A stretch of DNA of 64,000 nucleotides from Leptotrichia buccalis C-1013-b (GTDB lineage Bacteria; Fusobacteriota; Fusobacteriia; Fusobacteriales; Leptotrichiaceae): positions 1,488,001 through 1,552,000 of the forward strand of contig NC_013192.1 of NCBI RefSeq assembly GCF_000023905.1, read 5' to 3'. Of this stretch, positions 19,951 through 32,090 are shown piece after piece. The position numbers and the translations under genes were made by a program. Under the pieces are notes generated by a model. It ran no database searches and was not told the origin of the DNA. It saw nothing but the letters and a program-made list of their open reading frames with translations. Position 1 is the first letter of the stretch. Each line of letters starts with the position of its first letter.

Positions 19951-20532
19951 TTACCTTCTTCTTTTTGCCGCCTTATATTGTGCGGGAAGTACAATTCCAA
20001 GTAAAGTAATATAAACACTTATCATCATTGCAGGCGGATAAAAGGTGCACGATATTATTAACCCCATAATTTTTATAATTATATCAATACTTAACCATCT
20101 CATCCTTATTTTTAATGATTCCTGTGATTTCTCATCGTTTCTATTTGCTTTTCCTATCAAATGCCCAGAAATTATATTACAAAATGTAACAGCCAGAACT
20201 ATTATCCCATAAAATCCTTGTGCTACACTACTGTTGTAATATGAAGTGACAAAAGAAGTCACATAAGGAAAAAACGAAGAAAAAAACAGTAAAACTACGT
20301 TTCCCCAGACAACTGCCGGTGTAATGTATTTTATTTTATGCCATTCATTATGCAGATTTACCCACATTGTTCCAAGCCAGAAAAATGAAATCGTATATGC
20401 AAAAAAATTTACTCTTAAATTCCAAAGGGCTTTTAAAGTTGCTGTTTCAGGCTTTTTTAGCTCTAATATGAGAATTGTCATAATAATTGCAAGTACGGCA
20501 TCCATAAAAGCTGCAAGTCTTTCCTTATTCAT
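19951..20532 (-). CDS. TMEM175-like (DUF1211) membrane protein, tandem copy A
   Basis: A 193-residue protein with helix 1 motif RLAAFMDAVLAIIMTILILE and five further hydrophobic segments. It ends in a basic tail. It is about 85 percent identical to the neighbouring copy B (20752-21336), nearly identical in the N-terminal half and more divergent toward the C-terminus. The start at ATG 20532 follows TGGAG at good spacing. It lies downstream of a cupin gene fragment that is part of the same duplicated unit. Potassium channel activity is known for family members; it is inference here. Confidence 0.8.
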   Translation of the reverse strand: MNKERLAAFMDAVLAIIMTILILELKKPETATLKALWNLRVNFFAYTISFFWLGTMWVNLHNEWHKIKYITPAVVWGNVVLLFFSSFFPYVTSFVTSYYNSSVAQGFYGIIVLAVTFCNIISGHLIGKANRNDEKSQESLKIRMRWLSIDIIIKIMGLIISCTFYPPAMMISVYITLLGIVLPAQYKAAKRRR

Positions 20533-20576
20533 AATCAAACTCCATTCCATGATTTTATAATAATAGTACAATTGTA

Positions 20577-20735
20577 TCATAAATCAGTAGAAAATTCAAT
20601 TTTCAGTTTTTCATATTCTTCATCTGAAACTTCTTCAAACCACTCTGCATCTCCAGCTGTAATGGCAATATGTGAAAACCAGCTGTCTTTCGTTGCTCCA
20701 TGCCAATGCTTTACATTTTCATGATCAGTATTAGA
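20577..20735 (-). pseudogene. Cupin-domain protein C-terminal fragment, copy A
   Basis: Reading leftward, VKHWHGATKDSWFSHIAITA and then EWFEEVSDEEYEKLKIEF to a TGA at 20577 match the end of cupin proteins associated with carboxymuconolactone decarboxylases. The metal-binding HWHG motif is present, but the N-terminal part and a start are missing. Confidence 0.65.
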
Positions 20736-20751
20736 TTTACTACTCCTATTA

Positions 20752-21336
20752 TTAATCCCTTCTTCTTTTTATTGCCTTATACTGTTCCGGAAATGCAATT
20801 CCAAATAAAGTAATATAAACACTTATCATCATTGCTGGCGGATAAAATATACACGATATTATTAACCCAATTATTTTTATACTTATATCAACTTTTATCC
20901 ATCTTATCATTATTTTTAATGATTCCTGCAATTCTTTATCATGTTTATTCACCTTTTCTATCAGATACAACGAAATTATATTGCAGAATGTAACAGCTAG
21001 AACTATTATCCCATAAAATCCTTGTGCTACACTACTGTTATAATATGAAGTGACAAAAGAAGTTACATATGGAAAAAATGAAGAAAAGAAAAGTATTACT
21101 ACATTTACCCAGACAATTGACGGTGTAATATATTTTATTTTATGCCATTCATTATGCAGATTTACCCACATTGTTCCAAGCCAGAAAAATGAAAGCGTAT
21201 ATGCAAAAAAATCTACTCTCAGATTCCAAAGGGCTTTTAAAGTTGCTGTTTCAGGCTTTTTCAGCTCTAATATGAGAATTGTCATAATAATTGCAAGTAC
21301 GGCATCCATAAAAGCTGCAAGTCTTTCCTTATTCAT
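20752..21336 (-). CDS. TMEM175-like (DUF1211) membrane protein, tandem copy B
   Basis: A 194-residue paralogue of copy A with the same helix 1 motif and WHKIKYITPS loop. Differences cluster in the last 80 residues, including LIEKVNKHDKELQESLKIMI. ATG 21336 is preceded by TGGAG. It follows a truncated cupin end and the flavodoxin gene on the same strand. Two paralogues might form mixed tetramers, but the sequence does not show this. Confidence 0.8.
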   Translation of the reverse strand: MNKERLAAFMDAVLAIIMTILILELKKPETATLKALWNLRVDFFAYTLSFFWLGTMWVNLHNEWHKIKYITPSIVWVNVVILFFSSFFPYVTSFVTSYYNSSVAQGFYGIIVLAVTFCNIISLYLIEKVNKHDKELQESLKIMIRWIKVDISIKIIGLIISCIFYPPAMMISVYITLFGIAFPEQYKAIKRRRD

Positions 21337-21380
21337 AATCAAACTCCATTCCATGATTTTATAATAATAGTACAATTGTA

Positions 21381-21462
21381 TCATAAATCAGTAGAAAATT
21401 CAATTTTCAGTTTTTCATATTCTTCATCTGAAACTTCTTCATACCACTCTGCATCTCCAGTT
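21381..21462 (-). pseudogene. Cupin-domain protein C-terminal fragment, copy B
   Basis: Only the last 27 or so codons remain (EVSDEEYEKLKIEFSTDL), nearly identical in DNA to the corresponding part of copy A. The fragment begins directly after the stop of the flavodoxin gene, which marks the duplication junction. Confidence 0.6.
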
Positions 21463-28439: not shown

Positions 28440-28491
28440 ATATAATCTCCTTCATTTTCTTATTTTTATTTCCTTATCTTTATATATAGTT

Positions 28492-28563
28492 ATAATACTA
28501 AAATTTAAGATAAAAGTACAATACCGTTTAGAAAATGTGCTATAATTAAAATGCATACTAGAA
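28492..28563 (-). promoter_or_regulatory. Hydrolase promoter with upstream LysR-type box, copy 1
   Basis: Minus-strand promoter: TTGTAC (28516-28521) and TATTAT (28492-28497), 18 bp apart. The upstream block 28515-28563 matches 30494-30543 at about 40 of 50 positions. It includes a split dyad ATA-N17-TAT adjoining the -35, as expected for a LysR activator site. On the plus strand the same block contains TATAAT for the LysR gene. Confidence 0.6.
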
Positions 28564-28588
28564 ATAAAAATTATATGAGGTGATTTAT

Positions 28589-30420: not shown

Positions 30421-30470
30421 TTATATATCAGTTTTTTAATTACAATTATACTTTCAATCTTCTTGAATTT

Positions 30471-30543
30471 ATTTTATCAAAATTTTTTTCTAAAGTACAA
30501 TACCAATTAGGAAATGCACTATAACTAAAACACATACTAGACA
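30471..30543 (-). promoter_or_regulatory. Aldo/keto reductase promoter with LysR-type box, copy 2
   Basis: Minus-strand TTGTAC (30495-30500) and TAAAAT (30471-30476) with 18-bp spacing. The block 30494-30543 repeats the box upstream of the divergent hydrolase, in the same orientation and position relative to the -35. Confidence 0.6.
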
Positions 30544-30599
30544 TTTATAATTTCAAAAAAAACTAGGATTTCTCCTAGCTAAAAGATTTCTTATCATTT

Positions 30600-31307
30600 T
30601 TACTCTTTTCCTATTATTTTTTTATAATACACATACCATCGAGTTTCCCATCTTTTTTGTACGCACAATCTAACTAAATCTTCTTCATTTTGAATATTAT
30701 TCTGAGTAATAATCTTGTGTGTTTCTTTATTTATAATAAGACCGTTATCTACTTCAAGCTGTAAATCTGGATATATGGCTGCACTTCGGATATGTGAAAA
30801 TTCTGCAGTTTTTAAGTTTAATGGAGCTCTTGTTAATTCATCGACAGTTATACTGTGTTCTTTTATTCTTCGTTTTTTCAATTTTTTTCTTTCTTCTGCA
30901 ATACTTTCATAATATCTCGCTCTCAATACTTCAGCTTTGTCAGAATCTTTAATCAAATAATATAACTTTTCAGAATATCTTATGTAATCCCTTTTTCTAA
31001 ATGTTGGCGTAGCATCAAAAACAATAGAGAGAAGATTGATAAAATCAGTTCCAGATATATATTCAGAAACAGGTAAACCTATTAAAGCAAGATAATAGTT
31101 CACCAATTCTTTTTTTATACGTGCTAAAATATGTAAATATCTATATTTAATCCAAACTATTCCTTTTTCATCAAGAAAAGCTCCTTTAATCCAAGCATTT
31201 TCAATGGAATTAACCCATGTTTTACTTAAGTCTCCAGAATTAATCTGTCTTATAATATACTCCAAATCATTGATTTTAATCAATGTTTTACTAATTTCAT
31301 ATTTCAT
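30600..31307 (-). CDS. Protein with HNH-like C-terminal motif, unknown function
   Basis: A 235-residue protein I cannot assign to a named family. The N-terminal 150 residues are helical. The C-terminal part contains AEFSHIRSAAIYPDLQLEVD followed by NGLIINKETHKIIT. The spacing His-16-Asn-8-His and the NGL..N...H pattern are those of HNH nucleases of the restriction type, but without zinc cysteines. No signal peptide or membrane segment. Its ATG overlaps the stop of the J-domain gene by four bases, so the two are translationally coupled. A nuclease role is inference from motif alone. Confidence 0.55.
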   Translation of the reverse strand: MKYEISKTLIKINDLEYIIRQINSGDLSKTWVNSIENAWIKGAFLDEKGIVWIKYRYLHILARIKKELVNYYLALIGLPVSEYISGTDFINLLSIVFDATPTFRKRDYIRYSEKLYYLIKDSDKAEVLRARYYESIAEERKKLKKRRIKEHSITVDELTRAPLNLKTAEFSHIRSAAIYPDLQLEVDNGLIINKETHKIITQNNIQNEEDLVRLCVQKRWETRWYVYYKKIIGKE

Positions 31308-31711
31308 TTTCTAATCATCCCTTTGTATAAATTTTCTAATGACTGCATCGCCTCTGTAGCTTTAGGATGCCTGCAAATATCAGGGTGTATTTTTTTTACC
31401 ATTTGTTTATACCATTTATTAGCCTTTTTTTCATCGGTATAAAACTCGTAAGACACTCCCAAAAAGTCCATCTGTAATTTTCCATTTAATTCTACAAGAT
31501 AAAAGATATTTTTAGACACTTCATCTTTAAAATACATATCTTCCTGTGTCTTTGGTAAAATATATTTTTCGTACAAATTTTGCCAAGAACGTGCAGTTGC
31601 TTTCTCTATATTTAAAATTTGTGCCACATTTTCTTTAGCTTCTTTAAATGTTTTAAACACTTTTTTTAAATCTTCAACTGATTTTATATCATAAATACTG
31701 TTTCTCTCCAT
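31304..31711 (-). CDS. J-domain-containing protein
   Basis: A 135-residue protein. Its C-terminus has YKQMVKKIHPDICRHPKATE, with the invariant HPD loop between two helices of a DnaJ-type J domain, which stimulates an Hsp70 partner. The N-terminal half is helical, and ILNIEKATARSWQNLYEKY looks like a helix-turn-helix. There are no Gly/Phe or zinc regions, so this is not a general DnaJ co-chaperone. It is the first gene of a two-gene unit with the HNH-like protein. AAGGGA precedes the ATG. Confidence 0.65.
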   Translation of the reverse strand: MERNSIYDIKSVEDLKKVFKTFKEAKENVAQILNIEKATARSWQNLYEKYILPKTQEDMYFKDEVSKNIFYLVELNGKLQMDFLGVSYEFYTDEKKANKWYKQMVKKIHPDICRHPKATEAMQSLENLYKGMIRK

Positions 31712-32090
31712 TTAAAATCCCTTCTTTTCCTACACTAATTCATTTACTTTCCTACTCAAAAACTCTTATATTTTAATTATACCATATTTAATATAAACTT
31801 CAAATGTAGAAAAAATAATAAAAAGTTCAACAAATACATAAAATCTCACTAAGTCTCTTTCGATTCTTTCCGCATAATTAAATCCCAACCGTCTGCTGTT
31901 CCGTATATATTGTTATCTAATTACACTAAAATTATTTTAAAACTAAACAAAAAAAATCATAATTATCCTGCTCAATTCCAAAACTTTATGTATTTCCCAT
32001 CAGTTCAATTCCAAAGAAATTCAAGTATACTACAACTAAAAAATATGGTATAATTACTGATAATAACTTACAGATAAGGAAGGTTTTAAA
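31712..32090. other. Intergenic region with a short coding relic
   Basis: On the minus strand 31849-31914 reads LDNNIYGTADGWDLIMRKES then two codons and a stop, protein-like but without a start. It is probably the end of a lost gene. A TATAAT at 32049-32054 may serve the aminotransferase gene; its -35 is weak. Nothing else stands out. Confidence 0.35.

Follow-up and report, generated by a model that had tools for sequence, protein, structure and literature searches.

What do two adjoining genes do for their carrier when one encodes a stand-alone J-domain protein and the other a protein with an HNH-like arrangement of histidine and asparagine residues? The two overlap in the window analysed here, a stretch of 64,000 nucleotides from Leptotrichia buccalis C-1013-b, and their features are as follows.

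31304..31711, minus strand: gene of the J-domain protein, 135 aa (open reading frame; Pfam DnaJ E 8.7e-5; phrog_17986 E 2.8e-27; Foldseek J-domain matches)
31379..31387, minus strand: HPD codons, J-domain residues 109-111 (translation; exact in 19/24 nuclease-linked homologues)
30600..31307, minus strand: gene of the predicted HNH-type nuclease, 235 aa (open reading frame; 24-member family; AlphaFold pLDDT 80)
31304..31307, minus strand: four-base gene overlap, ATGA (direct reading; overlap or abutment in 24/24 pairs)
30717..30794, minus strand: HNH-like core (conservation of H172, N188 and H197; strand-strand-helix in the model)
30792-30794, 30744-30746 and 30717-30719, minus strand: codons of H172, N188 and H197, respectively

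The coordinates, strand, four-base overlap, HPD (in KKIHPDICRH) and His/Asn/His residues reported by a sequence-only reading of this DNA are all present in the sequence, and the exact spacing in the 235-aa protein is H172-x15-N188-x8-H197. The ATGA overlap probably couples the translation of the two genes. Both have a GC content (0.275 and 0.287) near the mean of the window (0.294). The genome holds no paralogue of the nuclease gene, and the neighbours of the pair are metabolic (LysR, aldo/keto reductase, aminotransferase). A comparison of 12 upstream regions by eye revealed no shared operator upstream of the J gene.

Some further observations concern the surroundings of the pair. Compared with related genomes there is an inversion of ~200 kb, with breakpoints at window 31711-32040 (genome 1519711-1520040) and genome position ~1721930, and the pair sits just outside one end of it. 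The idea of a hidden ancestral defence context for the window copy was rejected, as the other breakpoint has ordinary genes. Two copies of a 76-nt direct repeat (window 28490-28565 and 30469-30544; 75% identical), perhaps a shared regulatory site, precede the LysR gene and the divergent aldo/keto reductase gene. At window 19951-21384 there are two near-identical tandem genes for a membrane protein of ~210 aa, a recent duplication.

The 135-aa protein matches the phage family phrog_17986 strongly, whereas its match to Pfam DnaJ (PF00226) lies below the gathering score. When its model is searched with Foldseek, almost all matches are J domains (probability up to 1.0, best E 8.6e-3), including DnaJ and DnaK-bound DnaJ. 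Both Foldseek and Pfam point to the J-domain fold with its helices II and III, and together with the conservation of the HPD across homologues they bear out the claim of a stand-alone J domain. In the AlphaFold model the C-terminal half is helical and confident (block pLDDT ~80-94) and the N-terminal half is poor; there, the helix-turn-helix-like N-terminus proposed by the sequence-only reading finds no support, the model showing only a long helix of low confidence. An N-terminal unit of ~45 aa occurs twice in the Fusobacterium homologues.

Of the AlphaFold models of the 235-aa protein, the best was built from an alignment of four sequences and has a mean pLDDT of 80 (the others, 58-78); it contains a strand at 168-172, a second strand at 189-193 and then a helix at 194-202. 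H172 is placed at the end of the first strand, N188 before the second and H197 inside the helix, which is the order of a beta-beta-alpha-metal site; the loop 175-184 is of low confidence. Of all positions in the family, H172 and H197 alone are invariant (24/24 homologues each), and N188 is kept in 22/24, so that the pattern exceeds chance. Among viral models, Foldseek finds many HNH proteins (probability up to 0.98), none of them significant (E >0.1), which superpose at rmsd ~2.5 over 60-70 residues; the N-terminal part shows a weak likeness to BRO-N/antirepressor proteins in the same models. Against solved structures the HNH matches are weaker, one being the HNH restriction enzyme VcaM4I (E 1.5), and when profiles of the nuclease family were run against such structures, the matches were at chance level only. 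With sequence profiles, the window protein has no significant family in Pfam, NCBIfam, PHROGs or PADLOC and no significant match to HNH profiles (best PHROG HNH E 0.16, no Pfam HNH). Weak HNH matches are confined to divergent members: the Klebsiella protein (PHROG E 9e-4) and a protein from a second Leptotrichia genome, G009 (Pfam HNH, E 0.035). The predicted strand-strand-helix around H172, N188 and H197 supports an HNH-type fold, which the protein is likely to have.

These data also bear on a reading without any nuclease, in which the metal bound by His/Asn/His is purely structural and the two proteins form a complex for regulation or chaperoning. Such a protein would account for the replacement of the first His of the usual HNH His-His dyad by Ser or Ala in most members, for the absence of zinc-knuckle cysteines from the 24-member family and for the want of a significant HNH profile or fold match to the window protein. 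The near-complete retention of N188 beside two histidines that alone are invariant is, however, what a catalytic metal site would predict, and we regard a non-nuclease as very improbable.

Linkage, co-inheritance and spread of the two genes

Our collection of intact pairs numbers 24 and draws on Fusobacteriota, Clostridia, a phage contig, and conjugative plasmids from Vibrionaceae and Klebsiella. A J-like open reading frame lies directly upstream of the nuclease in every one (24/24), overlapping it by 1-14 nt in 22 and abutting it in the other two, and no intact nuclease without a J partner appeared among the copies found. Conserved linkage in other genomes had been named beforehand as the test on which the pair would stand or fall; with a J-like gene beside 24/24 intact nucleases, the answer is strongly in the pair's favour. 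The partner on pAQU1 is very divergent and is assigned to the J family by its position and size together with a weak alignment. No methyltransferase or other third gene travels with the pair, and the flanks hold no common neighbour family.

In a mirror-tree comparison, distances within the J family correlate with those within the nuclease family at r = 0.905, a value reached by 0/5000 permutations, and within Clostridia alone the correlation is r = 0.928. Judged from these sequence distances, the correlation shows that the J and nuclease families are co-inherited, which does not in itself prove contact between the proteins. The two genes form a conserved unit with conserved J and HNH residues.

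The distribution of this unit is sporadic and horizontally spread. Relatives occur in Fusobacterium-type genomes and, in one clostridial order, in 20/226 genomes; the pair is also found on pAQU1-type conjugative plasmids of Vibrio and Photobacterium, on a conjugative plasmid of Klebsiella, and in the tail-gene region of a phage contig. Among 13 genomes of the genus, the close form is restricted to the window's genome, and G009 has a divergent form. In the tree, one clostridial copy groups at 100/100 with those of the Vibrionaceae plasmid and the phage, and from this clade it follows that the two-gene unit crosses phyla; Klebsiella and G009 sit on long branches whose placement is unsure. Scanning viral contigs with single sequences gave, for the most part, the query itself or nothing, and a scan of genome contigs with patterns from a poorly conserved part gave three loci only.

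Such a distribution raises the question of whom the pair serves. A relic of a mobile element module, one of two options in the sequence-only reading, is at odds with a pair that is intact, constrained and recurrent, though it is carried on mobile elements. A different possibility is that the pair works for plasmids, phages and integrated elements, in conflict or maintenance, with the chromosomal copies (the window's included) as passengers. Its presence on conjugative plasmids and in a phage tail-gene region, and that of orphan J genes in phage early regions, would fit; but many clostridial and fusobacterial copies are on chromosomal contigs, with no obvious mobile element in the flanks examined and with putative catalytic residues intact, and we consider this explanation improbable.

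The HPD motif, orphan J-like genes and decayed copies

In the nuclease-linked J proteins, H is kept in 22/24, P in 20/24 and D in 23/24, and all three together in 19/24; the five variants read HSD, HTD, HES, SPD and RED. At least three of these belong to otherwise intact pairs (HES on pAQU1, RED in Klebsiella, SPD in Leptotrichia G009), and therefore recruitment of Hsp70 cannot be essential in every lineage.

J-like genes also occur without a nuclease, in Fusobacterium phages, in IMG/VR contigs and in genomic stretches that are prophage-like or mobile, and a nuclease profile search of the flanks examined around them found nothing. Here the HPD is missing from 11/13 through a two-residue deletion and kept in 2/13; after clustering at 80% identity, 6/8 clusters are without it. 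The difference between linked and orphan genes (19/24 vs 2/13) gives a Fisher P of 3e-4, which is descriptive only, since the phage deletion looks inherited in common and the sequences are thus not independent. As far as sequences can tell, recruiting Hsp70 appears to be of importance in the presence of the nuclease, yet is not indispensable. The HPD-less orphans that sit in early regions, in phages and proviruses of Fusobacterium (L006, L052-L054, L058, L064-L069) are candidate decoys of the host pair.

In all five decayed copies of the pair (5/5) it is the HNH part that is lost. The F. vincentii copy has a nonsense codon and a truncation in the nuclease beside an intact J gene, the Vibrio sinensis copy has an insertion sequence within the nuclease gene, and the others are in one Clostridium MAG and two clostridial genomes (L092, L093). 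Directly upstream of one decayed copy is a BURPS668_1122/SNAD4 (AID/APOBEC-like) deaminase gene (L013:5907-7055).

Defence genes near the pair

Neither protein matched a family in PADLOC 2.0.0 at E 0.001. Known or candidate defence genes clearly neighbour the copies in Fusobacterium, Clostridium G169, pAQU1 and Klebsiella but are absent at the window copy, and most clostridial copies have no obvious defence island. One Fusobacterium-type copy adjoins a complete type I restriction locus and another a type I methylase gene; in Clostridium G169, type I methylase and specificity genes are close to the pair. The pAQU1 pair has a divergent SIR2-domain gene (PADLOC PDC-S25) nearby, and the Klebsiella plasmid carries an FRG gene (PDC-S15) and a UvrD-like helicase as well as genes for multiubiquitin and ThiF near a TnsD gene. 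In G009 the pair and a Fic-domain gene sit between ribonucleotide reductase genes. A bulk comparison set 143 proteins from the flanks of mainly clostridial copies against 141 taken from control stretches in those genomes: at 1e-10, 167 PADLOC models matched in the flanks vs 30 in the controls, a count of models and not of genes that is suggestive only, because one gene can match dozens of models.

Two of these neighbourhoods hold further uncharacterised genes. Three consecutive genes lie between the type I restriction genes and the pair in Clostridium G169 (L020:3072-5632), the two larger ones having no Pfam or PADLOC match. The G009 insert (L022:7323-10722) consists of the J-like/HNH pair, uncharacterised proteins of 421 aa and 138 aa, and a truncated Fic gene.

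The main rival to the role proposed below sees the HNH protein as a restriction enzyme and the J protein as its dedicated aid in folding. The former would cut foreign or modified DNA directly, recognising it through its N-terminal region, and the latter would do nothing beyond loading DnaK for folding or solubility, with no antitoxin role. The adjoining type I restriction genes in Fusobacterium and Clostridium are consistent with this, as are the HPD kept in 19/24 linked J proteins, the weak Foldseek match to VcaM4I and the weak BRO-N/antirepressor likeness of the N-terminal part. On the other hand, no methyltransferase or third gene accompanies the pair, and pure Hsp70 loading leaves the pairs without HPD unexplained. 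We think this somewhat unlikely.

Proposed role and known systems

We propose that the pair is a mobile two-gene module of effector and controller, a nuclease with a J partner that controls it, and give this reading a probability of roughly 0.5. The downstream gene would encode an HNH-fold nuclease. The J-domain protein, from the gene upstream to which it is coupled in translation, would bind the nuclease and control it. As long as the cell is undisturbed, this J-like partner would keep the nuclease folded but inactive, or deliver it restrained, in most lineages probably acting with host Hsp70 (DnaK) through the HPD. A disturbance, for example a phage infection that upsets the partner or the chaperone system, would then free the nuclease to cut nucleic acid, with toxin-antitoxin or abortive-infection behaviour as the outcome. 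The physical binding, the nuclease activity, the involvement of Hsp70, the trigger and the role in defence are what we infer here; the module is possibly toxin-antitoxin-like and anti-phage.

An effector with a dedicated controller is favoured by the one-way dependence of nuclease on partner, taken with coupling, co-inheritance, mobility and the loss of the HNH part in decayed copies. The conserved HNH-like residues, the cross-phylum spread and the defence genes beside several copies also speak for it. Counted against it are the loss of the HPD in some intact pairs, the ordinary metabolic neighbours of the window copy, and HNH profiles that fall short of significance for the window protein. 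The chaperone-licensed nuclease that was the other option of the sequence-only reading is possible, going by the conserved residues. In a bolder version, Hsp70 would set the state of the nuclease via the dedicated J partner, phage interference with chaperones would free it, and the HPD-less J copies of Fusobacterium phages would bind the nuclease without Hsp70 as decoy inhibitors; this we rate as distinctly unlikely.

No paper combining a J-domain and HNH pair was found in the open-access literature. Type II toxin-antitoxin modules have a small upstream partner whose gene overlaps that of a nuclease; they are sporadic and mobile, and the effector is not seen without its partner. The J/HNH pair is by analogy similar, being sporadic, mobile and overlapping, with adjacent and co-inherited genes (24/24, r 0.905) and no effector kept without its partner. 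To our knowledge, no type II antitoxin is a J-domain protein. With HNH endonucleases (PF01844 and phage HNH families) the effector shares the His/Asn/His order and the predicted beta-beta-alpha arrangement, and it differs from them in the replaced first His of the dyad, the missing zinc-knuckle cysteines and a different N-terminal region. The phrog_17986 orphans of the Fusobacterium phages Funu1, Funu2 and JD-Fnp2/3/5 carry a homologous J-like domain (43-48% identity) but have no adjacent nuclease gene, and those read are without HPD through the two-residue deletion; they offer a natural experiment on how a J partner acts with and without Hsp70.

An unnamed two-gene unit that crosses phyla is now defined, and its parts join the Hsp70/J machinery to a predicted effector of nuclease type. 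The nearest published parallel is the need of bNACHT25, an anti-phage NLR-related protein, for host DnaJ in activation or phage sensing (PMC12169576). In both cases Hsp40/J machinery is tied to an effector, here a putative one; bNACHT25 is anti-phage, and here a defence role would be the counterpart. Whereas the DnaJ of bNACHT25 is a housekeeping protein of the host and its effector a NACHT protein, the J protein here is dedicated and stand-alone, encoded beside an HNH protein, and a system with a J protein of its own would make chaperone-based control or sensing directly testable.
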